This document shows positions 7,671 through 19,602 of a DNA stretch of 37,334 bases, in pieces (position 1 is the first letter of the stretch; each line of letters begins with the position of its first letter). The position numbers and the translations under genes were made by a program. The DNA comes from a virus. Under the pieces are notes generated by a model, which saw nothing but the letters and a program-made list of their open reading frames with translations, did not search any database and was not told the origin of the DNA. The stretch covers positions 1 through 37,334 of IMG/VR virus record IMGVR_UViG_3300046460_000427; one strand, given 5' to 3'.

Positions 7671-7861
7671 ACATGGGCAGCAATCATTCATACCGCATGC
7701 CTGTGTCCGCCCGGCATTTCAGCACCCGTCACCGCGCCGCCCATGTCGACTGGGAGCGGCAGCCCCTGGTCGGCGGCGGCACGCGCCATCGCCACAAGGT
7801 GCGCTGGCACGGCTACGCCATCGCGTTCGCCATCGGCGCGCTGATCGGCCTGCTCATCTGA
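7667..7861 (+). CDS. Small C-tail-anchored membrane protein (64 aa)
   Basis: Not recognised. The N-terminal 48 residues are polar and very rich in His and Arg; the C-terminus is one hydrophobic segment (YAIAFAIGALIGLLI) ending at the last residue. This predicts a tail-anchored inner-membrane protein with a cytoplasmic basic domain. The ATG overlaps the gemA stop as ATGA and three bases separate its stop from the mor ATG. Possible roles include superinfection exclusion or host membrane effects, but this is only a guess. Confidence 0.6.
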   Translation: MNMGSNHSYRMPVSARHFSTRHRAAHVDWERQPLVGGGTRHRHKVRWHGYAIAFAIGALIGLLI

Positions 7862-7864
7862 GCC

Positions 7865-8251
7865 ATGGCGAAGCCCAGGGCCACCCATCCCAGCCACTCC
7901 CCGGAGTTTGGCAATGTGGCCGGCATCATCGGTGATGCCGCGACGATGGCCCTGTGCGAGCGTTTCGGCGGGGTGCGCCTCTACATTCCCCGCCATATCA
8001 GCCCCACCAATCCGATCGCGCAGGCGGTCGGCATCGATGCGGCGAACCGCCTTGCCGAATATCTGCACGGCACGAATATCGACCTGCCCAAGGCCTATCT
8101 CGGCCGCCGCCGCGTGATCGAGATGAAGGGACAGGGTTTCAACGCCCGGCAAATAGCACTTGCCACGGGCTACACGGATCGTCACGTTCGCCACATTCTG
8201 GCAGATGCCCGCGAAGACGATGGGCAGATGACGTTCCCCGGTATGTTCTGA
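7865..8251 (+). CDS. mor: Mor/C-family transcriptional activator of late genes (128 aa)
   Basis: Length (128, against 129 for Mu Mor) and pattern fit the Mor family. An N-terminal dimerisation helix region is followed by ERFGGVRLYIPR at residues 32-43, the Gly-Gly/Tyr-Ile-Pro strand signature. The C-terminal HTH lies at about 90-113 (GQGFNARQIALATGYTDRHV). Mor proteins bind an inverted repeat just upstream of -35 and recruit RNA polymerase. The gene is last in the early/middle operon and faces a 61-bp gap holding a palindrome shared with the other late promoter region. No second C-like gene is visible, so it may serve as both Mor and C. Confidence 0.92.
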   Translation: MAKPRATHPSHSPEFGNVAGIIGDAATMALCERFGGVRLYIPRHISPTNPIAQAVGIDAANRLAEYLHGTNIDLPKAYLGRRRVIEMKGQGFNARQIALATGYTDRHVRHILADAREDDGQMTFPGMF

Positions 8252-8256
8252 GACGA

Positions 8257-8274
8257 CCGGGCGGAAATATCTCC
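8257..8274 (+). promoter_or_regulatory. Candidate Mor operator upstream of the lysis operon
   Basis: The element CCGGGCGGAAATATCTCC contains a near-perfect palindrome, GGAAATATCTCC at 8263-8274 (dyad centre 8268.5). An almost identical copy lies at 18425-18442, ahead of the protease gene. In Mu the Mor dyad is centred near -43.5, which would put the transcription start at about 8312, one base before the lysin ATG. A weak -10-like sequence (CATAGC) lies at 8300-8305 and there is no good -35, as expected for an activator-dependent promoter. It corresponds in position to Mu Plys. Confidence 0.7.
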
Positions 8275-8312
8275 GGCTAAGAGCGCCGCCCGAATAGCTC
8301 ATAGCTTGCCCC

Positions 8313-8957
8313 ATGAGCGGGGAAAACAATGACATCATCGTGCAAGGCTGGAGCGAACGCTATGCGGTCGCCGGGCGTGCCCTCCTGGGCATCGAAGGCG
8401 GCCACGTCAACGATCCCGTCGATCGCGGCGGCGAGACCAAATTCGGCGTTTCGCTGCGCTTCCTGGTCGCTGAGGGCCAGATCGACCTCGACGGCGACGG
8501 CATCGCCGACTTCGACCTAGACATGGACGGCGACATAGACGGCGCCGATATCCGCAAGCTGAAGCGCGGCGACGCGCTCTATCTCTTCCACCGCTGTTTC
8601 TGGCTGCGCCTCGACGCCGACAGCTTCGCCCCGCCGATCGGCGAGATGCTGTTCGACCAGGCCGTGAACGGCGGCCTCACCGCCGCGCGCAAGATGCTCC
8701 AGCGCGCCGTCAATGCCAGCCTCGTCACATATGGACTGAACGGTCAGGCCCTGGTGATCGACGGCGTGCTGGGCACGGCGACGCGCGCCATGATCGACCG
8801 CGTCCTTCAATGGAACGGCGCCGGCTTGCCGACGCTGATCAACGCGTATCGCGACGTCGTGGCGGATCGCTATCGCGCGATCGTCGCCGCCAATCCTTCG
8901 CAGAAGCGATTCCTCAATGGCTGGCTGAACCGCGCCGCCCAGCTGGGCCGCGCCTGA
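8313..8957 (+). CDS. GH108-type endolysin with EF-hand-like insertion (214 aa)
   Basis: Peptidoglycan-degrading lysin. The N-terminus has the glycoside hydrolase 108 signature, LLGIEGGHVNDPVDRGGETK at residues 24-43, with E28 the expected catalytic acid. The C-terminal half matches the PG_binding_3 domain (IDGVLGTATRAMI, then FLNGWLNRA). Between them residues 58-79 are a run of alternating Asp (DLDGDGIADF and DMDGDIDGAD), like paired EF-hand or dockerin calcium loops. No signal peptide is visible, so release depends on a holin. No Shine-Dalgarno precedes the ATG. It is the first gene after the candidate Mor-dependent promoter and overlaps the i-spanin gene by TGATG. Confidence 0.93.
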   Translation: MSGENNDIIVQGWSERYAVAGRALLGIEGGHVNDPVDRGGETKFGVSLRFLVAEGQIDLDGDGIADFDLDMDGDIDGADIRKLKRGDALYLFHRCFWLRLDADSFAPPIGEMLFDQAVNGGLTAARKMLQRAVNASLVTYGLNGQALVIDGVLGTATRAMIDRVLQWNGAGLPTLINAYRDVVADRYRAIVAANPSQKRFLNGWLNRAAQLGRA

Positions 8958-9481
8958 TGTTCGGGCTCTCCGCCTTTCGGCTCGTCGGCATCATCGCCGG
9001 CAGTCTCGCCATCTTCGGCATCGCCTGGGCCGTGCAGGATCGCTTTCGTCTTGCGGAGATCGTCCACCAGGCCGAGCGCTGCGAAAAGGCCAGCACAAGC
9101 GAAACCGCCAGCGTCGTCGACTGCACGCCGCCGATGCGCGTTCAGGTCGAGCAGGCGCGTCAGGCCCGCCAGTGCGACCGCGCGCTCGCGCAGAAGGACC
9201 GCGCCAAAGCGCTTTTCGAGATCCGCGCCGTCTGCACGGCAAACGTCCTGGTCGAGGTTGCCGCGCGCTCAGCCGCCGAGGGCAATCTGGCCGATGCCAG
9301 GGCGACGATCGCCACCGTGACCGCCGGGCAGACCGCCGCGGTCGAACGCGCCGAGGCGCGCGCCCTTTCCCTCTCCCAGCAAAGGACCAAGGCCGATGCC
9401 GCTGTTGCTTCAGCGCCGCGCCTGGCTAACGGCCTCGCTCGCTGCGATGCTGACTGCCTGCGCCGCCTCGCCGGCCGATAG
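8957..9481 (+). CDS. Inner-membrane spanin subunit, Rz-like (174 aa)
   Basis: Identified by architecture and context. One N-terminal transmembrane helix (about residues 7-26) is followed by a long, charged, Ala/Arg/Glu-rich periplasmic helical region suited to coiled-coil formation. It follows the endolysin directly with a one-base overlap, and a lipoprotein gene begins inside its 3' end in another frame, the classic Rz/Rz1 layout. Spanins fuse inner and outer membranes in the last step of lysis. Six periplasmic Cys residues are unusual and might form disulfides. The same frame is open from 8810, but ATG at 8957 begins the membrane helix. Confidence 0.8.
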   Translation: MFGLSAFRLVGIIAGSLAIFGIAWAVQDRFRLAEIVHQAERCEKASTSETASVVDCTPPMRVQVEQARQARQCDRALAQKDRAKALFEIRAVCTANVLVEVAARSAAEGNLADARATIATVTAGQTAAVERAEARALSLSQQRTKADAAVASAPRLANGLARCDADCLRRLAGR

Positions 9482-9704
9482 GCCCGCGATCAAGCCTGAT
9501 CCCGTCATCGAGCAGCGCACCGTCGTCATGACCCGCTGCCCGGCCGAGATCATGGCCGCGATTCCCGCCTTCGAACCGCCCGCCCCCGGCTTCTTCCTGG
9601 AAGCGCCCGCCGACGTGCTCGACTGGATCGGCCGGCATTTCGCGCGCGAGCAGCTGCTGGAGCGCCGCCTGACCGACGCGAAAGGACAGTGCCCCGATGG
9701 CTGA
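9396..9704 (+). CDS. Outer-membrane lipoprotein spanin, Rz1-like (102 aa)
   Basis: It begins inside the Rz-like gene in another frame (86-base overlap). The N-terminus is a lipoprotein signal: basic QRR, a hydrophobic stretch, then the lipobox LTAC at residues 19-22, so signal peptidase II should leave a lipidated Cys22. The mature part contains prolines (PAFEPPAPGF), as in Rz1 proteins, and a C-terminal helix. AAAGGA upstream of the ATG can serve as ribosome site. Its stop overlaps the ATG of the fibre-like gene. Confidence 0.82.
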   Translation: MPLLLQRRAWLTASLAAMLTACAASPADRPAIKPDPVIEQRTVVMTRCPAEIMAAIPAFEPPAPGFFLEAPADVLDWIGRHFAREQLLERRLTDAKGQCPDG

Positions 9705-11217
9705 CCTTGAAACCCGTTCGATCGTCCAGTTGGATCGCGCCGTCGTGGTCCCCGATGACGCCTATGTGCCTGTCCAGTCCGAAGACGCCCCTGCGCGGCG
9801 TGTGCCAGTCAGCGCATTGTTCAGCCGCTATCTGGGCGTTGCCGCTACCTATCCGACGCTGGCAGAGCTGGAAGCCGACCTCGACCATGCCGAGGATGCG
9901 CTTGCGCTCGTCTTCAGCGATCCCGACCCCACGAATTCGATCTACTATCGCAAATCCGGCGCGTCGGGCGCGGGCTCGTGGGAACGGACCAACATGGTCA
10001 CGGGATCGTCAGGCCCGGCCAACAGCACCTATACGAGCACAGCGGCGCTGGAAGCGGCGGCGGTCACGAATGTCAGCGCGATCCTGGCGGAGGCGGGGAA
10101 GGCAGGCACCTTCACCGTGCGGGACTATGCTGATTTCACGGCCGAGGTCGCGGCCGACATCGGCAAGGTCAATTACATCCGCTCCACGGTCACGCCGGCC
10201 AGGGTCTGGGTGCGCGCCAGCATATTGGCGCAGAGCGCTTCGCTGACAGGCAAGAGCGGCTCCGGCACGGTCCAGGACACGATTTCGCTGCTGGAGGGCA
10301 TGAGCGTTTCCCCCCAGGTCGATTCGCTGTTTATCGGTGACGGATCGACCGCGAGACATGGTGCGGTCCTGAACCTCGCGGGCACGTCCGCCTCGCAGAA
10401 TGAAATCGGCTTTTCCGTCGCGATCGACAACGCCGTCCTGGTCGGCGGCGGAAAAAGCTATTCTGTCGGCCTGTTCGCGGCACAGACATCGCGCGCAGGT
10501 TCGTGCACCGGATATGGGCTGAACACGATCTTCCGGTCCTACGGTCCGCCCGGCACCAGCATCGAGGCGAACACCGACAATTTCGGCCCCGACAGCGGCA
10601 ACCTTGTTACGCAGAACAGTGTCTTTGGCGCTTATGCCTGGATCACTGGCATCAACATCCTCATCGCCGGAACCGGCAACGTGCTGGCCGGATTGGTGAT
10701 CGGATCGCCGCCCGCCTATGTGAAGAAGATCAATCGTGGCATCCTGATCGACGGCGATTGCATCCGCCTCAATGGGATCGAAGACACCTCCGACGCGCCG
10801 ACCGCTTATATGATCCGCGGTGCTAAGGGCGTCGGCATCGATACGACCAATGCCACCTTTTCCTCGAACCGCGCCCTCTTCATGGCTGCAGGTCATTTTC
10901 TCAGCTGGATGGTGGGCGGCACACCTCAGGACGTGCTCGGCGTCAGCGGCACGGACTTCCAGATCGGCTACGGCGTGGCGCGGACGCTGTTCGGGTCGAG
11001 CATGATCCCCGGTGCAGACAATGCGTTCGCGCTCGGATCGGATGCCGAGCGGGTATCGCGCCTGACGGCTGTCGAGCTGAAGAACGTCCTCCAGATCCTC
11101 GTCGCTGCGGCGCCGCCGAGCGATCCCCCGGCAGGCCAGTGCTATTTTTACATGGATAGCGTGACGGGCAAGGCAACCATCAAGGACGCGGCCGGCGTCG
11201 CGCACGCCCTTTGGTAA
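9697..11217 (+). CDS. Tail fibre/spike-like protein (506 aa)
   Basis: Probable virion fibre or surface protein. The N-terminal 110 residues resemble the base of phage fibres: repeated VPVSALF/LAELEADL segments and IYYRKSGASGAGSWERTN near residues 87-104, a motif seen in many tail-fibre N-termini. The centre is Gly/Ser/Thr-rich with short beta-like repeats, and the end has a small strand-rich knob (CYFYMDSVTGKATIKD). There is no chaperone domain or transmembrane segment. Its place between lysis genes and DNA-packaging genes is unusual, since the standard fibre genes of this phage lie at the far right. It may be a decoration or an acquired receptor-binding protein. Confidence 0.65.
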   Translation: MADLETRSIVQLDRAVVVPDDAYVPVQSEDAPARRVPVSALFSRYLGVAATYPTLAELEADLDHAEDALALVFSDPDPTNSIYYRKSGASGAGSWERTNMVTGSSGPANSTYTSTAALEAAAVTNVSAILAEAGKAGTFTVRDYADFTAEVAADIGKVNYIRSTVTPARVWVRASILAQSASLTGKSGSGTVQDTISLLEGMSVSPQVDSLFIGDGSTARHGAVLNLAGTSASQNEIGFSVAIDNAVLVGGGKSYSVGLFAAQTSRAGSCTGYGLNTIFRSYGPPGTSIEANTDNFGPDSGNLVTQNSVFGAYAWITGINILIAGTGNVLAGLVIGSPPAYVKKINRGILIDGDCIRLNGIEDTSDAPTAYMIRGAKGVGIDTTNATFSSNRALFMAAGHFLSWMVGGTPQDVLGVSGTDFQIGYGVARTLFGSSMIPGADNAFALGSDAERVSRLTAVELKNVLQILVAAAPPSDPPAGQCYFYMDSVTGKATIKDAAGVAHALW

Positions 11218-11234
11218 AAACGGAGACTAGAGCA

Positions 11235-11558
11235 ATGCAGATCGTTGATTTCAGTGCGCACATTCTCGGCCTCGACGGCCAGCCAGTGATGCGGGATGGG
11301 AAGCCGGTGACGTTCCGGGCCGTCAGCCAGGCGGCCTTGATCGAAGTGCAGGTCGCGGCTGACGCCAATATGCCTGCCGGCCAGAAGGCCGACTATTTTC
11401 GCATCGCGATGCTCGCGAACGCCGATCGGGTCGAAATGCATGTTGATGACGTGTCGTTGCTGAAGGCGCGGATCGAACAGGTCATGACCCCTCTGGTGGT
11501 CGGTCGCGCCCGCGAGCTTCTCGACCCTCCGGTCTCAGGCGATGACAATGCCGCATAG
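11235..11558 (+). CDS. Small phage protein, unknown function (107 aa)
   Basis: Not recognised. The first 40 residues read like a short beta domain in which a default setting is specified (LGLDGQPVMRDGKPVTFRAV), followed by helices. I chose ATG at 11235 because GGAG lies 9 bases upstream; the in-frame TTG at 11211 overlaps the previous stop but has no support. It lies between the fibre-like gene and the membrane protein, and its 3' end overlaps a small gene in another frame. Confidence 0.6.
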   Translation: MQIVDFSAHILGLDGQPVMRDGKPVTFRAVSQAALIEVQVAADANMPAGQKADYFRIAMLANADRVEMHVDDVSLLKARIEQVMTPLVVGRARELLDPPVSGDDNAA

Positions 11559-11712
11559 CTCGACCATGCGCGACACGCTGCGCAAGACTCCGCGTGCCAA
11601 GGCACAGCCGCAGCTGGAGCGGGAAACCTTCTCCCTTCCGCCTGCGACGCTCCGCTTTCCAGATGGAGAGGAGCAGGAACGAGAGGTGCGTCATGATGCG
11701 CCTGCCGAATAG
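11542..11712 (+). CDS. Very small charged protein (56 aa)
   Basis: Short frame filling the gap between its neighbours. It starts inside the 3' end of the previous gene (ATG at 11542; a second ATG follows two codons later) and stops at 11712. The protein is highly charged, with a basic N-half (RKTPRAKAQPQ) and an acidic C-half (GEEQEREV), and is likely disordered. No function can be given. The close fit between flanking genes favours a real gene, but it could be a non-coding spacer. Confidence 0.4.
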   Translation: MTMPHSSTMRDTLRKTPRAKAQPQLERETFSLPPATLRFPDGEEQEREVRHDAPAE

Positions 11713-11729
11713 TGCTGAGGCCGCCGCGC

Positions 11730-12218
11730 ATGGCTAAGGACGCATTGCTGCTGGGCGCGGCCGACATCGTCCAGCGCCTTTCGGGCGCGTGCCTGGGCGC
11801 GGTGATCGCCTCGGCCGGCGCTGTCGCCGGGCCTGTGATGCCCGTGCATTTCGGCCCAAGCATTATCGTGCTGCTCGGCTACGACCTGCCGCTGCTGCCC
11901 GCGATCATCGGCGCGATCGGCGTGGTGGCGACGCGGCAGTTCGCTCCGCTCACGGCGGTCGAAGCGCGCATCAGCCGCACGGGCCGCTTCGCGCTGACCG
12001 GCATGATGGTGCTCGTCATCATCGCCCTGGTCATGTCCGGAGAGCGGCGTCCACTCGTCATCACCGGCCTTGCCGGCGGGCTTGGCTATTCCGGCGTCGC
12101 CATTTTCGAACTGCTCGCCAGCGGCGTCAAAGTGTTCGCCGGCTTCGCCATCGAGGCGTTCACGCGCGGCGCCGTCTCCATCATCAAATCCAGAGGCCCG
12201 AAGGAGGGCGACGAATAA
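11730..12218 (+). CDS. Multi-pass membrane protein, candidate holin (162 aa)
   Basis: Three or four hydrophobic segments are visible, at about residues 20-40, 50-72, 90-107 and 112-140, with a short charged C-terminal tail (KSRGPKEGDE). A phage membrane protein two genes past the lysis cassette, in a phage whose GH108 lysin has no signal peptide, is a reasonable holin candidate; no other strong one lies next to the lysin. It is larger than typical class I holins, so a membrane-associated morphogenesis role is also possible. ATG at 11730 is preceded by a TGAGG; GTG at 11712 is an alternative. Confidence 0.55.
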   Translation: MAKDALLLGAADIVQRLSGACLGAVIASAGAVAGPVMPVHFGPSIIVLLGYDLPLLPAIIGAIGVVATRQFAPLTAVEARISRTGRFALTGMMVLVIIALVMSGERRPLVITGLAGGLGYSGVAIFELLASGVKVFAGFAIEAFTRGAVSIIKSRGPKEGDE

Positions 12219-12595
12219 TGCAGCTCGACGTTGCTTCCATCCTTGCGCTCGGCCTGCTGGTCGCGCTCGTCTTTCTCGCCGTCCGATCAAACAAGGGATC
12301 GCCCCAGCTCGACCGCGCCCTGGTGCGCGAGCACGCCAAGCTGAAGAACCGCATCGCCAAGGTCGAGGCCGACCTGAGCGGCTGCGCCACCAAGGTCGAT
12401 ATCATGGCGCTCAGCGGCAAGATCGAGGCGCTGGAAGAGCATGCCGCCTCGGCCGGCGACATCAACGCCCTGGAGGGCAAGGTCAACGTCGCGTTGGCGA
12501 AGATCGATGCCGTCGAGAAGTCATCCGACCGCACCGCCAAGGGCGTGGAGCGCATCGAGACATTCCTCATTGAAAAAGGCCTGGGAGGCCGCTGA
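12218..12595 (+). CDS. DUF2730-like membrane-anchored coiled-coil protein (125 aa)
   Basis: The N-terminal hydrophobic helix (about residues 5-22, SILALGLLVALVFLAV) is followed by a basic stretch and a long heptad-rich helix to the end (KLKNRIAKVEADL, KIEALEEHA, KVNVALAKIDAVE). This matches the DUF2730 family found in Mu-like prophages at the gp25 position, just before gp26, gp27 and terminase genes. Role unknown. It overlaps the previous stop by TAATG and shares its last base with the next gene's start. Confidence 0.7.
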   Translation: MQLDVASILALGLLVALVFLAVRSNKGSPQLDRALVREHAKLKNRIAKVEADLSGCATKVDIMALSGKIEALEEHAASAGDINALEGKVNVALAKIDAVEKSSDRTAKGVERIETFLIEKGLGGR

Positions 12596-12897
12596 TGACC
12601 GAATTTGCCGACCGTATCTGGGAAGAACGCCGCCTGCTGATGCTCCAGCTGCTCAATGGCATGGACGATGGATCGGCGGGCGACCGATCGCTGACGCTGG
12701 GTCTGCGCGACCTTGGTCATGACCGGATCACCCGCGACCAGGTGCAGACGCATCTGAGCTGGATGAAGGACCAGCGCCTCATCTCCATCATCCCGCTCGC
12801 GGATGGCGCGATGGCCGTCACCATCACCCAGCGCGGCGCAGATATCGCCGCCGGGCGATCGGCGATTCCCGGCGTGCTGCGCGGCGGCCGCGTCTGA
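12595..12897 (+). CDS. gp26-like winged-helix phage protein, VpaChn25_0724 family (100 aa)
   Basis: It matches the small winged-helix family that in Mu-like phages precedes the gp27 and terminase genes: an N-terminal helix with EERRLLMLQLL, then RITRDQVQTHLSWMKDQRLI as recognition helix, a beta wing and the conserved end TQRGADIAAGRSAIPGV. It is likely DNA-binding; the exact job in packaging or regulation is not known. Its start overlaps the gp25-like gene by one base. Confidence 0.8.
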   Translation: MTEFADRIWEERRLLMLQLLNGMDDGSAGDRSLTLGLRDLGHDRITRDQVQTHLSWMKDQRLISIIPLADGAMAVTITQRGADIAAGRSAIPGVLRGGRV

Positions 12898-12900
12898 GCC

Positions 12901-13467
12901 ATGCCACGCAAGCGCAACACGCCATCCTCGATCGACCGGCTGCCGCACGAGGTTCAGGAACTGATCGGCCAGTTGCGCCGCAGCGGCCGGACGATCGAGG
13001 AAATCCGCGCCAAGCTGATGGAGCTGGACGTCGAGGTCGCACGATCGACGCTTGGCCGGCATGTGAAGAAGATGGCCGATGTCCAGCGCCGCATGCGCGA
13101 CTCCCGCGATATGGCGCAGGCCCTTGTCAGCCAGTTCGGCGCGGAGCCGGACAACAAGCTCGCCCAGGCCAATATCGACCTGATGCACAGCATCATCATG
13201 CAGACGCTGGCGCACGTCGAGGAGGACGAGAACGGCAACCCGAAGCCGATCATCTTCGATCCCAAGGATGCGATGTTCCTTTCCAGCTCGCTTTCGAACC
13301 TCGCCTCCGCCGCCAAGAACAATGATGCCCGCATCATCAAGGCCAAGGAAATCGGGCGAAAGGAGGAGCAGGCTGCGGCGCGAAAGAAGCTCGAAGCGGC
13401 TGGACGTGCCGGAGACATCGACCCGGAAGCCCTGGTGAAGGCCAAACGCATCATGGGTTATGAGTAA
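12901..13467 (+). CDS. Terminase small subunit-like protein, gp27/DUF3486 family (188 aa)
   Basis: The N-terminus MPRKRNTPSSIDRLPHEV and the HTH region (IEEIRAKLMELDVEVARSTL, residues about 38-57) are typical of the DUF3486/gp27 family, which lies directly before the large terminase gene in Mu-like phages and is taken to be the small terminase or DNA-recognition subunit. The C-terminal third is a charged coiled helix. The stop shares a base with the start of the terminase gene (TAATG). Confidence 0.85.
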   Translation: MPRKRNTPSSIDRLPHEVQELIGQLRRSGRTIEEIRAKLMELDVEVARSTLGRHVKKMADVQRRMRDSRDMAQALVSQFGAEPDNKLAQANIDLMHSIIMQTLAHVEEDENGNPKPIIFDPKDAMFLSSSLSNLASAAKNNDARIIKAKEIGRKEEQAAARKKLEAAGRAGDIDPEALVKAKRIMGYE

Positions 13468-14972
13468 TGGCAGACCGGGCCGTCGGAGACGATCTGCAAC
13501 GTCTTCTCCATTTCCATCCCTATCAGCGCGCATGGCTGGCGGACAAAAGCCGGTTCAAGGTTGGCATGTTTTCCCGCCAGTCCGGCAAGACCTTCGGCTG
13601 TTGCGCCGAACTGGTCGAGGACTGCATCGACGCTGAGATCTCCGGCAAGCGCACGCGCTGGGTCATCCTGTCCCGTGGCGAGCGTCAGGCCAAGGAAGCG
13701 ATGGACGAGAACGTCAAGCCCATGACGCGGGCGTTCTGGACGCTGTATCGCGGCATCCTCAAGGGGCCTGAACCGACCGTCGTGGAAGGTGAGTACCGCG
13801 TCACCAGGGAGGATGGCACCGACGCCACCTATCGCAGCTTCGAGGTGGAATATCCGGGCGGATCGCGCATCACGGCTCTGCCATCGAACCCGGATACCGC
13901 CCGTGGCTTTTCCGCGAACGTGCTGTTCGATGAATTTGCGTTCCATGCCAACAGCAAGGCCATTTGGGGCGCCGCCTATCCCATCATCTCGAAGGGCTGG
14001 AAGTGCCGCGTCGTTTCGACGCCCAATGGCAAGAGCAACAAGTTCTACGAATTGATGACCGAGGCGCAGTCGATCTGGTCGCGGCATCAGGTCGACATCT
14101 ATCAGGCCGTAGCTCAGGGGCTTGAGCGCAATATCGACGAGCTTCGCGCCGGGCTTGGTGATGACGATCTGTGGGCGCAGGAATATGAACTGCTGTGGCG
14201 GGACGAAGCCAGCGCCTGGCTCGACTATGACCTGATCAACGCCTGCGAGACGGAAGGCTATGGTCGCCTTCGCGAGATGGAGTTCGTCGGCAAGGAATTG
14301 ACGAAATGCGTCGAGACCGGCGAGCCGATCCGTCCGGCGCGCGGCCCCGTCTATGTCGGCATGGACATCGCCCGCAAGCGCGACCTTACCTGCATCTGGG
14401 CAGCGGAGAGGATCGGCGACGTGCTTTATCCGCGCGAGATCATCGTCATGCGCCGCGCCCCCTTTGCCGCCCAGCATGCCGAGTTGAAGCGCCTGCGCGA
14501 TCGCGATCATCCCGTGCGCTTCTCCATCGACCAGACCGGCATGGGCGAGCCATTCGTCGAGGCGGCGCAGGAATATCTGGGGGATTATGCCTGCGAGGGC
14601 GTGATCTTCACGCCGCCCGCCCGCTTCGCGCTGGCGACCATGCTCAAGCAGAACATGGAGGATCGCAAATTCCGGCTGCCTGTCGGCGATCGCTATCTGC
14701 GCGAAGATCTTCACTCCATCACGAAGGCCGTCAGCGAGACCGGTTCGGTCCGGCTGGTTCACGACGGCGAAAGCGATGGCCATGGCGACCGCTTCTGGGC
14801 GGCAGGCCTGTGCGTCAATGCCGCGTCGGGCCTTGGCCAGATGATCGCCTATCGCCCCGTGCCCAAGCCCGCCTTCGGAGATCCGCGCGCCGATCGCTTC
14901 GGCGACGAGATGGAGGCCGCGCGGTCCCGCACGCACGCCTCCCGCTTCATCAACGAACGCCGAGACTGGTAA
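13467..14972 (+). CDS. Terminase large subunit, gp28-like (501 aa)
   Basis: ATP-driven DNA packaging motor and nuclease. The ATPase half has an adenine-binding region (FHPYQRAWLAD, 16-26), a variant Walker A SRQSGKT at 36-42 and Walker B VLFDE at 152-156, followed by the coupling motif VSTPNGKSNKFYE (183-195). The nuclease half begins at YVGMDIARKRD with acidic D300, then SIDQTGMG with D355, and DGHGDRFWAA with D438/D441, the expected RNase H-like metal ligands. Mu-like terminases package headful from an end-proximal pac site. The gene starts at a one-base overlap with the small subunit. Confidence 0.95.
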   Translation: MADRAVGDDLQRLLHFHPYQRAWLADKSRFKVGMFSRQSGKTFGCCAELVEDCIDAEISGKRTRWVILSRGERQAKEAMDENVKPMTRAFWTLYRGILKGPEPTVVEGEYRVTREDGTDATYRSFEVEYPGGSRITALPSNPDTARGFSANVLFDEFAFHANSKAIWGAAYPIISKGWKCRVVSTPNGKSNKFYELMTEAQSIWSRHQVDIYQAVAQGLERNIDELRAGLGDDDLWAQEYELLWRDEASAWLDYDLINACETEGYGRLREMEFVGKELTKCVETGEPIRPARGPVYVGMDIARKRDLTCIWAAERIGDVLYPREIIVMRRAPFAAQHAELKRLRDRDHPVRFSIDQTGMGEPFVEAAQEYLGDYACEGVIFTPPARFALATMLKQNMEDRKFRLPVGDRYLREDLHSITKAVSETGSVRLVHDGESDGHGDRFWAAGLCVNAASGLGQMIAYRPVPKPAFGDPRADRFGDEMEAARSRTHASRFINERRDW

Positions 14973-14978
14973 TCGCCC

Positions 14979-16685
14979 ATGGCCAATGATCTTGTTCCCT
15001 TCGCCGCGCCCGCGCCTCCCGCCCTGGTCGATGTCAACGGCCGTCCGCTGCGGCAGGCCTATGATACGCTGACCCGCGAGGTCGGCCGGGCGACGATGAC
15101 CGGCATCCGCACGATCCATTCCGGGCACCCCGCCCATGGACTGACACCCGCTCGGCTCGCCCGTATCCTGCGCGAGGCGGAGACCGGAGACGCCACCGCC
15201 TATCTGGAGCTGGCCGAGGAGATGGAGGAGAAAGACCTCCACTATCAGTCGGTCATGGGCACGCGGAAGCGGGCGGTCTCCCAACTGCCGATCACCGTCA
15301 AGTCGGCCGGCGACGATGAACAGTCCGAAGGCGACGCCCAGCTGCTGCGCGACTGGCTTGACCGGCTGACGCTCCAGGCCGAGCTGTTCGATATCCTCGA
15401 CGCGGTGGGCAAAGGCTACAGCGCGACCGAGATCGTCTGGCAGACCACGACGGCGCTGTGGCTGCCGCTGTTCCTGAAGCGCCAGGATCCGCGCTTCTTC
15501 GAGTTCGACAAGGAAACCGGCGAGCGCCTGCTGCTGAAGGGCGGGATCGACGGCACCAGCGGCATGCCGCAACCGCTGCCCGAGCACAAGTTCATCGTCC
15601 ACCATGCCCCGGCCAAGTCCGGCCTGCCGATCCGTGGCGGCATCGCCCGCGCGGCGGCGTGGGGCTATGTCTTCAAGAACTACACTATCAAGGACTGGAT
15701 GGCCTTCCTTGAGGTCTACGGCCTGCCGCTGCGCGTGGGCAAATACCAGCCCGGCACGAACGAGGCCGACATCCGCGTGCTGGAGCGCGCCGTCGCCCAG
15801 ATCGGGTCGGATGCCGGCGCGGTCATCCCGCAGTCGATGATGCTGGAATTCATCACCGCCGGGGGCGCCGCGTCGAACCCGGAGATGTTCGAGCGCAAGT
15901 GCAAATATATCGACGATCAGCTGTCCAAGGCGGTGCTCGGCCAGACCAGCTCGGCCGATGCGAAGTCGGGCGGCATCGGCTCCGGCCAGGCGGATCTGCA
16001 CGGCGAGGTCCGCCACGATATCGAGAGCGCGGACGCGGCGCAGCTCTCTGCCACGCTCACCCGCGACCTCGCCATCCCCATGGTCATGTTCAATCGTGGC
16101 CGCCGCGATCGCTATCCGCTGATCCTCGTCGGTCGCCCGGATGCGGTGGACGTCGAGCAGGCCCTCAAGTCGATGGACGCGGCCGTCCGCCTGGGCGTTC
16201 CCGTGGGCATTTCTACCTTCCGCAAGATGACCGGCCTGCCGGAGCCGCGCGAGGGCGAGGAACTGCTGCGCGGGGCCGCCGAGGGACTGGCGCAAAATCC
16301 GGCCGGAGAGCCCTTGGGAAGCGGCGCAGGCCCTGTGCCCGCCAAAACGCGACCGGCAGACCTCTTAGGGGCTCTTAAATCGGCCCTGAGCGGCAAAGCA
16401 AAGGCGGGAGAAGTCTCCGCCAGCGCCGTCACGGCCGGCACGCCCGATGCGATCGACGCTGCCGCCGAAGAGGCGCTCTCCGACTGGGAGGAACTCATGG
16501 CGCCGATCGCCGCGCCGATCGAGGAGCTGGCGGCCAGCGCGGCGAGCCTTGAGGCGTTCCGCCACGGCCTGACCGCGATCATCGCCAGCATGGACACCGA
16601 CCGGCTGACCGAGATGCTGGCGCGGGCGACCTTCGCCAGCCGGCTCCAGGGCGATGCCCAGATCCAGCAGGAACAGCAGGGCTGA
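14979..16685 (+). CDS. Portal protein, gp29/DUF935 family (568 aa)
   Basis: Forms the dodecameric head vertex channel. The N-terminal part contains the family pattern of DUF935 portals (LYLELAEEMEEKDLHYQSVMGTRKRAV read across residues about 74-102), then WQTTTALWLPL, HKFIVHH and the GLPLRVGKY/AVLGQT blocks. The C-terminal 110 residues are Ala/Glu-rich and helical, likely the crown. It follows the large terminase after six bases, as in Mu, and shares a base with the next start. Confidence 0.93.
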   Translation: MANDLVPFAAPAPPALVDVNGRPLRQAYDTLTREVGRATMTGIRTIHSGHPAHGLTPARLARILREAETGDATAYLELAEEMEEKDLHYQSVMGTRKRAVSQLPITVKSAGDDEQSEGDAQLLRDWLDRLTLQAELFDILDAVGKGYSATEIVWQTTTALWLPLFLKRQDPRFFEFDKETGERLLLKGGIDGTSGMPQPLPEHKFIVHHAPAKSGLPIRGGIARAAAWGYVFKNYTIKDWMAFLEVYGLPLRVGKYQPGTNEADIRVLERAVAQIGSDAGAVIPQSMMLEFITAGGAASNPEMFERKCKYIDDQLSKAVLGQTSSADAKSGGIGSGQADLHGEVRHDIESADAAQLSATLTRDLAIPMVMFNRGRRDRYPLILVGRPDAVDVEQALKSMDAAVRLGVPVGISTFRKMTGLPEPREGEELLRGAAEGLAQNPAGEPLGSGAGPVPAKTRPADLLGALKSALSGKAKAGEVSASAVTAGTPDAIDAAAEEALSDWEELMAPIAAPIEELAASAASLEAFRHGLTAIIASMDTDRLTEMLARATFASRLQGDAQIQQEQQG

Positions 16686-17188
16686 TGGACGGCGACCTGC
16701 GCAGCGCGCATTTCCCCTTCTGGTTCGATTTTACGCGGCTGACCGCCCAGCCCTATCGCGATGCCAGCGGCGCGGTGCAGTCGGCACCGGCCGGCACGCC
16801 GCGCTTCGACCATCTGGCGGACGGCACGCCGCGCGGCCTGCTCGTCACCTTCGGCGCGGCGCTGGGCGCGGGCGACCGCGCGCAGCTCCAGGAGGATGTG
16901 CTGTCCGACGCTGCCGGCGACGCCGCGACGGTGCTGCATGCGATCACGCTGGCGGACGGCACGATCGATCGCCGCGCATGGTACTCCCGCGATGCCCGCC
17001 GCACCATCAACGGCCTGGTCGGGATCGAGGCCGCCCATGCGATCATCGCCGCCATGCCCGGCTTCCTGCCGAACAAGGGCGGCTTCGTCCGCTGCCGGGG
17101 TCTCAGCTGGTTTCTGGCGAACGCGATCGGCGACGGGGCGGGCCGCGCGATCTCCGACGATGCCGGCCGGCCGCTGATCGAGCAATAG
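16685..17188 (+). CDS. Phage structural-type protein with fibre-associated motif (167 aa)
   Basis: The N-terminal 60 residues contain a motif common at the start of phage fibre or head-spike modules: a YxDASGAVQ strand, then PRFDHL and GTPRGLLVTF near residues 39-58. The rest is a helical domain not recognised. Mu has no gene between portal and the F-type minor head protein, so this is an accessory gene at the portal vertex. It could be a small head decoration or an adaptor for another protein. It is coupled to the portal by TGATG and ends one base before the next gene's start. Confidence 0.55.
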   Translation: MDGDLRSAHFPFWFDFTRLTAQPYRDASGAVQSAPAGTPRFDHLADGTPRGLLVTFGAALGAGDRAQLQEDVLSDAAGDAATVLHAITLADGTIDRRAWYSRDARRTINGLVGIEAAHAIIAAMPGFLPNKGGFVRCRGLSWFLANAIGDGAGRAISDDAGRPLIEQ

Positions 17189-17189
17189 C

Positions 17190-18362
17190 ATGGCCGACGA
17201 TGCCGAGCCCGATATCCCGCTGGTAAAGCCGCTTGAGGCCCTGCGCTTTTTCCGCGCCAAGGGCTTCTCGTTCGGTTTCGCCTGGCAGGATGTGTGGCAG
17301 GAAGAACATGCCCGCGCCTTCACCGTCGCCAAGGCAATGACCCGAGACCTGCTGGAAGATCTCCGCGCGGCGGTGGATACCGCGATCGACCAGGGCGAGA
17401 CGCTGGCGCAGTTCGGCAAGAAGCTGCGCCCCATCCTGGCAGAAAAGGGCTGGTGGGGTCGCAAGCTGATGGCGGACCCGGAGACGGGCGAGGAACGGGT
17501 CGTGCAGCTGGGCAGCCCGCGCCGGCTGAAGACGATTTATCGCATCAACATGCGCACGGCTCAGACGGCGGGCCGATGGGAACGCATCCAGCGGTCGAAG
17601 AAGTTGTTCCCGTATCTTCGCAAGGTCTCGGTGATGGATGGCCGCGAGCGACCGGAGCATCATGTCTGGCACGGCACAATCCTGCTGGTGGATGATCCCT
17701 GGTGGGATACTCATGCAGGACAATGCGGCTGGGGCTGTCGCTGCCAGGATCAACCCGTCAATCAGCGGATGATGGATGCGAAAGGCTGGACGGTCACACG
17801 TCAGCCCGTGCGTTTTCCCATGGTGGATTACGTCAATCCGCGCACGGGCGAGATCACGCGGCTGGAGCGCGGGATCGATCCAGGCTGGGCGTACAATGTC
17901 GGCAAGGCCGCGCTCGACGGGCAGACGCCACCGCCGCTAGGGCCGGGCAGCGATGTCGCCGCAGCGCGCGGCGTTACCGTCGCCGATCTCGATCCCTTCT
18001 TCGCTGCCTTCGGCCTTGCCGAGAGCGCGATCGCGCGCGGCCGGATCTTCACCGACCAGGGCGGCTGGCCGCTGGCGATCTCGCTCGGGCTGTTCCGCGA
18101 TGCCGGTGGCCGGCTGGAGCTGCCCGATCGCGCCCGCATCCGCCATCTGCCTGCCGTCGCCACCGCGATCGTCGATCCGGTCGAGATCCGCTGGCGCTGG
18201 GTGCGCGGGGCCGATGGCACCATGCTGCTGATGCGGCGCTACATCGGCACGGACGCCGTTGTCGATTTCGGCCGGGTCGGCTGGCGTTTCCATGCGCGCG
18301 GGGAACGCGGGTTCAGCGCCGCGCGCCATGCCCAGGGAACCATGGCCTGGACAGAACCGTAA
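17190..18362 (+). CDS. Minor head protein (F/gp30-like, SPP1 gp7 type) with C-terminal nuclease-toxin-like domain (390 aa)
   Basis: Residues about 10-215 match the minor head morphogenesis family: a helical region (ALRFFRAKGFSFGFAWQDVW), INMRTAQTAGRW near 119-130, and the Cys/His-rich end HAGQCGWGCRC at 175-185. After a linker, residues about 265-370 resemble the PBECR (phage-Barnase-EndoU-Colicin-RelE-like) nuclease domains found fused to such proteins: IFTDQGGWPLAIS, LPDRARIRHLPAVATAI, DPVEIRWRW and LLMRRYIG. Minor head proteins can be ejected with DNA, so the domain could act in the new host cell. It is the last gene before a 118-base gap and a candidate promoter. Confidence 0.85.
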   Translation: MADDAEPDIPLVKPLEALRFFRAKGFSFGFAWQDVWQEEHARAFTVAKAMTRDLLEDLRAAVDTAIDQGETLAQFGKKLRPILAEKGWWGRKLMADPETGEERVVQLGSPRRLKTIYRINMRTAQTAGRWERIQRSKKLFPYLRKVSVMDGRERPEHHVWHGTILLVDDPWWDTHAGQCGWGCRCQDQPVNQRMMDAKGWTVTRQPVRFPMVDYVNPRTGEITRLERGIDPGWAYNVGKAALDGQTPPPLGPGSDVAAARGVTVADLDPFFAAFGLAESAIARGRIFTDQGGWPLAISLGLFRDAGGRLELPDRARIRHLPAVATAIVDPVEIRWRWVRGADGTMLLMRRYIGTDAVVDFGRVGWRFHARGERGFSAARHAQGTMAWTEP

Positions 18363-18424
18363 ATTGGGCTGGTCTTTCCGCCTTCAAGGTGAAATGAACG
18401 CACCATCCCCATAGAATGCCGACG

Positions 18425-18442
18425 CCGGGCGGAGATATCTCC
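18425..18442 (+). promoter_or_regulatory. Candidate Mor operator upstream of the protease/capsid operon
   Basis: CCGGGCGGAGATATCTCC contains the perfect 12-bp palindrome GGAGATATCTCC at 18431-18442 (dyad centre 18436.5). It differs at one of 18 positions from the element ahead of the lysin. With Mu-like geometry (dyad near -43.5) transcription would start at about 18480, next to ATG 18481. The 118 bases between the minor head gene and ATG 18481 hold nothing else I can recognise; no T-rich terminator is present. This is the position of the Mu P_I late promoter. Confidence 0.7.
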
Positions 18443-18480
18443 TGCCACCGGCGACGTTTGCCCATGCGATCAGCATGGTC

Positions 18481-19602
18481 ATGAACCGGGGCCATCAACT
18501 CACATCCGCCATGCTTGCCGCGTCCGTTGGCGCTGCCGTCCTCGTCGCCGCGTCCAATGACGCGCCGGTGCTGATCGCCGCCAGCAGCGAGGTCGCGCTT
18601 GTCGATGGCGCGCCCGCCCGCCGGGTGAAGTTGCTGCCTATCGGCCAGATCGCGATGCGCGACGGCCGTGGTCCATATTATCTGCGCGATCGCGTCCATG
18701 CCGAGGCCGTCGTCGCCGCTACCCGCGAATGGCTGGGCGGCGGCGATTTCATGTTCGACTATGATCACCAGGCCGTCGCCGCCTCCCGGATCGACGGCAG
18801 CACCTCCCGCGCATCCGCCTGGGTGAAGCCCGAGAAACTGATCGTCCTCGACGACGGCATCTATGCCGACGACGTCGAGTGGACTGCCGCCGCCGACGCG
18901 GCGCTGCGCGGGCGCGAATATCGTTATGTGAGCCCGACCTTCATGGCGGCCAGGGGGACCGGCGATGTCCTCCAGCTCAAGAATACGGCGCTGACCAACA
19001 GCCCCGCCATCGATTTGCCGGCCATCGCGGCCAGCCATACTGGAGACCAAAGCACTATGGATAAGGACGCCATCCTGGCGTTGCTTGGCCTTGCGGCCAA
19101 CGCAACCGGGGAACAGATCGCTGCGGCGGTCAACGGGCTGGGCAAGGCTCAGGCACCCGCCACCAGCGCGATCGCGATCGCGGCGGGCATCGCCGAAAGC
19201 GCGACCGTCGAGGAAATCACCGCCGCCGTCGCCGGCCTGAAGAAGGCGGGCGCACCCGATCCGGCAAAGTTCGTGCCGGTCGAGCAGGTCACGGCCATGT
19301 CCGAGCAGATCAAGGTGCTCCTGGGCGAACGTGCCGAGGAGATTGTCGCCTCCGCGATCGCGTCGGGTCAGGTGGTCCCGGCGCTCAAGGGCTGGGCGCT
19401 CGACTATTTCCGCAAGGATGAAGCGGGCTTCCGCACCTGGCTGGAAAACCAGCCCGCCGTCGTCACGGCCGGCCAGCAGCTTGGCGGCCGCAAGCCGACC
19501 GAGAAGGCGACCAGCCTTTCCGCCGACGAGATCGCGTCCTGTGCCGCGATCGGCATGAGCCATGAGGATTTCCTCAAGGCGAAGAATGAGGAGATCGCAT
19601 AA
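18481..19602 (+). CDS. I: Prohead protease, Mu I-like, with C-terminal scaffold (373 aa)
   Basis: It matches the Mu-like I family: an N-terminal protease domain with LLPIGQIAMRDGRGPYYL, FDYDHQA near residues 94-100 and the REYRYVSPTF block around 145, then a long Ala/Glu-rich scaffold region ending in LSADEIASCAAIGMSHEDFL, the usual Mu-I tail signature. The protease matures the prohead. I prefer ATG 18481 over ATG 18475 because its distance to the upstream palindrome equals that of the lysin gene; no Shine-Dalgarno supports either. An internal start probably yields the free scaffold protein. Confidence 0.88.
   Translation: MNRGHQLTSAMLAASVGAAVLVAASNDAPVLIAASSEVALVDGAPARRVKLLPIGQIAMRDGRGPYYLRDRVHAEAVVAATREWLGGGDFMFDYDHQAVAASRIDGSTSRASAWVKPEKLIVLDDGIYADDVEWTAAADAALRGREYRYVSPTFMAARGTGDVLQLKNTALTNSPAIDLPAIAASHTGDQSTMDKDAILALLGLAANATGEQIAAAVNGLGKAQAPATSAIAIAAGIAESATVEEITAAVAGLKKAGAPDPAKFVPVEQVTAMSEQIKVLLGERAEEIVASAIASGQVVPALKGWALDYFRKDEAGFRTWLENQPAVVTAGQQLGGRKPTEKATSLSADEIASCAAIGMSHEDFLKAKNEEIA
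19057..19602 (+). CDS. Z: Internal in-frame scaffold protein, Mu Z-like (181 aa)
   Basis: In Mu the scaffold Z is made from an internal start within gene I. Here an in-frame ATG at 19057 is preceded by GGAG 11 bases upstream and falls exactly at the change from protease domain to the Ala/Glu-rich helical scaffold (MDKDAILALLGLAANATGEQ). The product would share the C-terminus of the protease and fill the procapsid before being degraded. The internal start is inferred from position and ribosome site; it has not been shown. Confidence 0.6.
   Translation: MDKDAILALLGLAANATGEQIAAAVNGLGKAQAPATSAIAIAAGIAESATVEEITAAVAGLKKAGAPDPAKFVPVEQVTAMSEQIKVLLGERAEEIVASAIASGQVVPALKGWALDYFRKDEAGFRTWLENQPAVVTAGQQLGGRKPTEKATSLSADEIASCAAIGMSHEDFLKAKNEEIA

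Follow-up and report, generated by a model that had tools for sequence, protein, structure and literature searches.

Paired palindromes ahead of two late operons of a Mu-like phage, candidate operators of its Mor-family activator

The window examined here, the whole stretch of 37,334 bases of the IMG/VR virus record IMGVR_UViG_3300046460_000427, carries a palindromic element in front of its lysin gene and again in front of its Mu-like I protease gene, which raises the question of which protein reads the two copies and to what effect. Genes matching MuA, MuB, GemA, Mor, the Mu portal, Mu F and the Mu I protease place the record among the Mu-like transposable phages, and a GH108 lysin and a terminase were matched as well. 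With a probability of roughly 0.86 we consider the two palindromes to be operators of the single Mor/C-family activator of this phage, which would switch on the lysis and capsid operons together.

The two palindromes and their closest relatives

The element GGCGGARATATCTCC is present twice in the window, ahead of the lysin start and ahead of the Mu-I protease start, each time with 44.5 bp from the palindrome centre to the ATG. The first-pass annotation had reported an 18-bp word shared between positions 8257-8274 and 18425-18442, which is indeed found there with one difference in 18 (A/G), and the perfect palindrome that it had read in the core of the second copy holds over 12 bp. Its placement of the copies before a lysin and a protease/capsid operon agrees with the genes that follow, which match a GH108 lysin and a Mu-like I protease, and the activator gene that it put directly before the first copy, a Mor-family gene for 128 amino acids, stops at 8251. 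Both sites have the form of a Mor/C-type operator, a dyad of about 16 bp at a phage promoter.

The Mor-family protein matches PF08765 with an E-value of 4.8e-9 (36.6 bits, family cut-off 24.9) and phrog_836 with 4.4e-22 (79.6 bits). In its structural model (mean predicted local distance difference test, pLDDT, 76.4) helices at residues 77-89, 94-101 and 105-119 form a C-terminal helix-turn-helix. Fold matches of the model were confined to helix-turn-helix parts (best Z 5.0), and the three chains listed by a sequence search of solved structures did not include one named Mor. The window and the related contig G001 each yielded a single PF08765 gene.

Two copies within one genome prove little by themselves and could reflect chance or a functionless local duplication. 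A search of the window for the 18-bp word at up to 3 mismatches gave one further match, at 12838-12855 on the minus strand. However, shuffles of the window contained on average 0.09 such matches, and pairs recur in other phages with many different sequences, which leaves this explanation a negligible chance.

The motif was expected at the same two gaps in relatives, and it was found in both relatives that keep a closely similar activator (69 and 72% identical to that of the window in G001 and G002, respectively). G001 was the one other contig matched in an exact 18-mer scan of viral_contigs; the element precedes both its lysin and its protease gene, with no further site at up to 2 mismatches. 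G002 was found by a Mor protein search and again has both sites. At the lysin site of these two phages the palindrome extends to 18 bp (GGCGGAGATATCTCCGCC). The centre-to-ATG distances in the two gaps are 44.5/44.5 bp in the window, 43.5/44.5 bp in G001 and 43.5/43.5 bp in G002, and CAT or GAT starts 31.5 bp from all six palindrome centres. The lysin-side hexamer CATAGC recurs in G001 and G002 with its distance unchanged, and G003-G005 keep it as well. A scan for the whole architecture returned 97 stretches, which by eye looked real only in G001, G002 and the fragments L037 and L063; the fragments have the same layout at the protease gap, although, as the spacing was built into the query, they are no test of it.

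Because the sites lie at operon borders and a palindrome is able to pair in RNA, transcription terminators or RNA hairpins between operons have to be considered, and the protease gap does fold somewhat better than shuffles (z -2.2). The lysin gaps, however, show no such excess over shuffles (z -1.0 and -1.2), a scan of 7800-19000 gave no terminator-like site at either copy, and terminators would leave the fixed start-codon distance and the tracking of Mor described below unexplained. We regard this explanation as very improbable.

Palindrome and activator across Mu-like phages

In G003, G004 and G005 the Mor protein is 38, 34 and 39% identical to that of the window, compared with the 69 and 72% of G001 and G002. 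In the same order, followed by G001 and G002, the identities to the window are 68, 71, 69 and 70, 70% for the lysin, 58, 60, 59 and 60, 57% for the portal, 51, 70, 49 and 50, 52% for MuA, and 55, 45, 57 and 51, 55% for the protease. No GGAGATATCTCC-type site was found in G003-G005 at up to 2 mismatches. They have CTCAACnnGTTGAG-type sites at two places each, in both gaps, and G005 carries a CTCAACCAGTTGAG site; at up to 1 mismatch no CTCAACnnGTTGAG site is present in the window, G001 or G002. From the -10 region into the gene, G003-G005 largely retain the DNA at both sites, the lysin gap and the protease gap each having a form of its own. Among these relatives, as read from their sequences, the activator gene and both putative operators differ together and the distance to the first codon is unchanged.

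A survey in which the motif was not used gave a wider view. Searching viral_contigs with protease and lysin alignments yielded 18 protease loci and 51 lysin loci, 50 of the latter with upstream DNA (all except L198) and 49 lying outside G001 and G002. The Mor scan took in 42 of these 49, leaving out L162, L167, L185, L186, L191, L198 and L199, and a Mor-family open reading frame (ORF) stood upstream of the lysin in all 45 records scanned (the window, G001, G002 and the 42 others), with 42-141 nt from the Mor stop to the lysin start in 43 records and 314-324 nt in two. The protease was found in 18 of 25 and in 16 of 28 records (three of the 16 being repeats). With G050 and G052 excluded, the first for want of DNA upstream of its lysin and the second for want of a lysin locus, 29 records remained, which together with the window, G001 and G002 make 32 phages. 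A dyad-like element shared between both gaps of one phage at a score S of at least 20.0 was present in 29 of the 32 and exceeded every shuffle in 26 (320 shuffle scores; mean 17.35, 99th percentile 19.9, maximum 20.5). Mean S was 22.9 for cognate and 18.5 for non-cognate gap pairs, and for the lysin gap of the window only the protease gap of G001 equalled the score of its own protease gap. The operator sequence varies by lineage, with types including GGAGATATCTCC, CTCAACnnGTTGAG, CCTGAAnnnnTTCAGG, CCTGACnnnnGTCAGG, GGTGACnnnnGTCACC, GCCCGCnnnnGCGGGC, TATCCGCnnGCGGATA, GGTGCACnnGTGCACC and CGGAAATAGTTCCG.

It could be argued that only one of the two copies is a Mor site and the other something else, for example a central gyrase site as in Mu, since the second gap is roughly central in the record and Mu has an annotated gyrase cut site in the matching gap. 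The element is, however, common to both gaps in 29 of the 32 phages at similar start-codon distances. A Mu-type central gyrase site at one copy was rejected because both gaps share the element, and such a split assignment is extremely unlikely.

For the spacing count and the correlations we excluded G006, G008 and G049 and retained G033 by eye, as its site looks like the one in G027 and the starts fit in both gaps, which left 29 phages. Since G012-G021 are near-duplicates and raw counts therefore overstate independence, the correlation tests were repeated on 13 less related phages (Mor under 50% identical). With lysin distance removed, operator distance correlated with that of the Mor helix-turn-helix at r 0.77 in the 29 phages (0 of 2000 permutations), and with that of whole Mor at r 0.76 in the 13 (0 of 3000); operator against lysin given Mor gave r -0.47 in the same 13. 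The protease-side operator, which in the window is 10 kb away from mor, taken alone and with protease and lysin removed, still correlated with Mor (r 0.58 in 27 phages, G013 and G026 with incomplete protease being left out, and 0.46 in the 13; 0 of 3000 each). In these comparisons the palindrome goes with the Mor-family protein more than with the lysin or the protease. Although its Mor has 26% identity to that of the window, G048 shares the half-site TCCGC and has a similar last helix (SDRYVRYL versus TDRHVRHI).

Palindromes near promoters are often repressor sites, and the sites could be the operators of another regulator, such as a phage repressor, a Ner-like protein or a host factor, that holds the late genes off; the tracking comparison took in Mor as the one regulator, besides lysin and protease. 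Against such a regulator stand the tracking of the Mor-family protein after lysin and protease distances are removed, the several phages with a different Mor that keep the lysin but differ in the palindrome, and the position of the palindrome, which equals that of the Mor dyad in the Mu promoter Pm (see below). We consider another regulator improbable, though the least so among the alternatives.

Spacing, predicted leaderless starts and comparison with Mu

Among the 58 gaps of the 29 curated phages, an in-frame ATG (45) or GTG (7) lies 43.5-46.5 bp from the palindrome centre in 52, at 43.5 bp in 11, 44.5 in 19, 45.5 in 19 and 46.5 in three. A C directly precedes the start in 47 of these 52. 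An upstream Shine-Dalgarno run of 5 nt or more is absent from all 52, and 24 of them do not even have one of 3 nt; among 27 comparison ORFs of the window, hand-picked and with the longest start used, 11 have a run of at least 5 nt and two have none. For the window protease, 18481 is the preferred start: G001 and G002 carry an ATG at the corresponding position, whereas the in-frame ATG lying 6 bases further upstream has no counterpart in them.

Mu Mor is described to bind a 16-bp element of 5-bp arms and a 6-bp spacer centred at -43.5 (PMC4390567), placed at -51 to -36 (PMC4287176). If the palindrome is set at this position, +1 falls on or next to the start codon, and the late mRNAs would thus be leaderless. 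For Caulobacter crescentus 375 leaderless mRNAs are reported (PMC4117421), so that alphaproteobacterial hosts can translate such messages; while leaderless mRNAs were reported there, they are predicted here from the spacing, the missing Shine-Dalgarno sequence and the C at -1. In Novosphingobium, T at -7 is stated to be missing in more than 80% of sigma-70 promoters (PMC8407463), and CATAGC would fit as a -10 element if the host is Novosphingobium-like. Our guess for the host of this phage is a sphingomonad.

The parallel with Mu drawn in the first-pass annotation stands in part. Mu has late promoters at the same two places, ahead of the lysis gene and of gene I, but there the activator is C, a relative of Mor, whereas Mor itself drives the middle promoter Pm (PMC4287176). 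The same source places C-bound dyads at Plys, PI, PP and Pmom and states that Mor and C cannot substitute for each other. Since the window and G001 each revealed a single Mor-family gene, it would take over the role of C. The sites resemble Mu Pm in the Mor-family gene just upstream, in the dyad of 5-bp arms and 6-bp spacer and in the lack of a -35 hexamer (PMC4390567, PMC4287176), and, provided that +1 is at the start codon, in a dyad centre at -43.5. They differ from Pm, which serves the middle operon with C, in preceding lysis and protease genes, in the operator sequence, in the spacer (GATATC here, G/C-rich in Mu) and in the predicted leaderless start. From the Mu late promoters they differ in number, with two sites found here and four in Mu, and the Mu lys start is preceded by the Shine-Dalgarno-like run AGGGAAG, unlike the starts here.

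The gaps of annotated phages and plasmid prophages were compared in the same manner. The two gaps of Mu share 14/18 positions, not clearly above shuffles (9 of 100 reach 14). With other sequences, 17/18 are shared in Rhodovulum, 17/18 in Pelagibaca and 18/18 in Chromohalobacter (0 of 100 shuffles each), 15/18 in Pannonibacter (1 of 100) and 15/18 in Azospirillum (6 of 100), and in all five the ORF just upstream matches phrog_836, a late transcriptional activator. In Chromohalobacter about 70 bp separate the element from the protease start, which shows that the leaderless spacing does not hold everywhere. No shared element was found in the gaps chosen in Burkholderia phage KS10 (13/18; 50 of 100 shuffles), whose lysis genes lie elsewhere, so that these gaps are not a true pair, nor in those of Alteromonadaceae phage B23 (12/18; 100 of 100).

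Three database entries deserve comment. The Pelagibaca phage was stated to lack Mor (PMC5488378); the ORFs upstream of the lysin in the Pelagibaca phage (L128, 6576-6989) and in Rhodovulum phage RhkS_P1 (L129, 6516-6959) match phrog_836 with E-values of 1e-19 and 2.4e-23. In Azospirillum argentinense plasmid p3 (L130), an in-frame ATG at 11870, 40 bp on from the first base of CACCCTTATTCG, the element there, points to a protease start earlier than the annotated one at 11930.

That the repeated palindrome is the operator of the Mor-family activator is supported by the close relatives, by the swap in G003-G005 and by the tracking with Mor across the 32 phages, from which we infer binding. We propose that a dimer of the activator would bind the dyad, with arms GCGGA and TCCGC around the 6-bp spacer GATATC, that the dyad, centred at about -44, would stand in for a -35 element, and that the bound activator would recruit host sigma-70 polymerase to the weak -10 hexamers (CATAGC, GATCAG), activating lysis and capsid operons together. 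In relatives the activator and both putative operators differ jointly, and the spacing and the DNA from the -10 region to the ATG are retained.

Several observations weigh against a Mor-family operator. G006, G008 and G033 (3 of 32 phages) fall below S 20.0. The gaps of G008 share no element (13/18, like controls), those of G033 share 12/18 with S 18.5, within the shuffle range, and G006 and G049 share 15/18 and 17/18 in a simpler match, not as a centred dyad. Non-cognate pairs reach S 22.5 at the 95th percentile, which we attribute to many phages having an operator type in common. Six of the 58 gaps, the lysin gaps of G011, G040 and G045 and the protease gaps of G044, G047 and G048, have no start at the expected distance, and the -10 region is weakly conserved, with a varying register, in the 29-phage set. 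The protease-side operator also correlates with the protease given Mor and lysin (r 0.31, 0 of 3000; 0.23 in the 13 phages, 150 of 3000). The recognition helix and the rest of Mor both correlate with the operator in the 29 phages (0.36 and 0.40), not separably, and an analysis of 9 crude clusters gave no significance for either of them (202 and 412 of 3000). A Foldseek search with the Mor model gave no match at E up to 0.001, and the solved Mor structure was not listed. Finally, a sigma-70-like match at 18389-18417 lies upstream of operator 2, where another promoter is possible.

Gene context and implications

The features are listed in Table 1. With the window Mor as sole query no match was obtained in genome_contigs or viral_contigs, nor with three Mor proteins in a second scan of genome_contigs; the window protease as query gave none in viral_contigs.

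Table 1 Features of the two late gene starts and of the activator gene in the window.
Feature	Positions	Strand	Remarks
Mor/C-family activator gene, 128 aa	7865..8251	+	PF08765, phrog_836; helix-turn-helix residues 77-119 in model
Putative operator 1, GGCGGAAATATCTCCGGC	8260..8277	+	centre between 8268 and 8269
-10-like hexamer CATAGC	8300..8305	+	first base 31.5 bp from operator 1 centre
GH108 lysin, first gene of lysis operon	8313..8957	+	protein match; leaderless start at 8313 predicted
Putative operator 2, GGCGGAGATATCTCCTGC	18428..18445	+	centre between 18436 and 18437
-10-like hexamer GATCAG	18468..18473	+	first base 31.5 bp from operator 2 centre
Mu-like I protease, first gene of capsid operon	18481..19602	+	protein match; leaderless start at 18481 predicted

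Further short sequences recur around the two sites. The -35 position, immediately downstream of the operator (8278-8285 in the window), is repeatedly occupied by TAAGAGCG or TTAGAGCG/CTAGAGCG in phages whose palindromes differ, several relatives among them. An inverted repeat CCCC-ATGANC-GGGG spans the lysin start codon (8309-8322) and is present in all six phages G000-G005. All 8 protease gaps that were read (window, G001-G005, L037 and L063) carry TG(C/A)AATGA some 40 bp ahead of operator 2 (18390-18397 in the window), amid otherwise diverged DNA. Elsewhere in the window, the Mu F-like protein (17190-18362) has a PBECR2 nuclease-like domain at its C-terminus, and the large terminase (13467-14972) is 32-36% identical to the terminases of G001-G005, compared with 57-60% for the adjoining portal, marking a mosaic boundary.

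A Mor/C-type operator pair at two late promoters is of a known kind; unusual are the leaderless layout, as predicted, and the concerted turnover. In the open-licence PMC literature, subscription papers being outside the scope, we came across no description of operators of this sort, leaderless late starts or operator turnover for these phages. Because the phages form a natural series of activator-operator pairs in which two sites change with the regulator, the joint change of regulator and sites could be tested with few reporter constructs. The operator pair would also allow late promoters, and the sites of their activators, to be predicted from sequence in dozens of uncharacterised Mu-like phages, and start codons there to be corrected.

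We tentatively hypothesize, at somewhat under even odds, that many Mu-like phages use interchangeable activator-operator sets, in which a new Mor gene comes with a rewriting of both operators, which lie 10 kb apart, while promoter cores and leaderless start are kept. One hint is the half-site shared by G048 and its similar last helix, noted above. If this is true, each set would be a private late-gene channel without cross-activation of co-resident prophages, and the many palindromes would lead to a readable recognition code.

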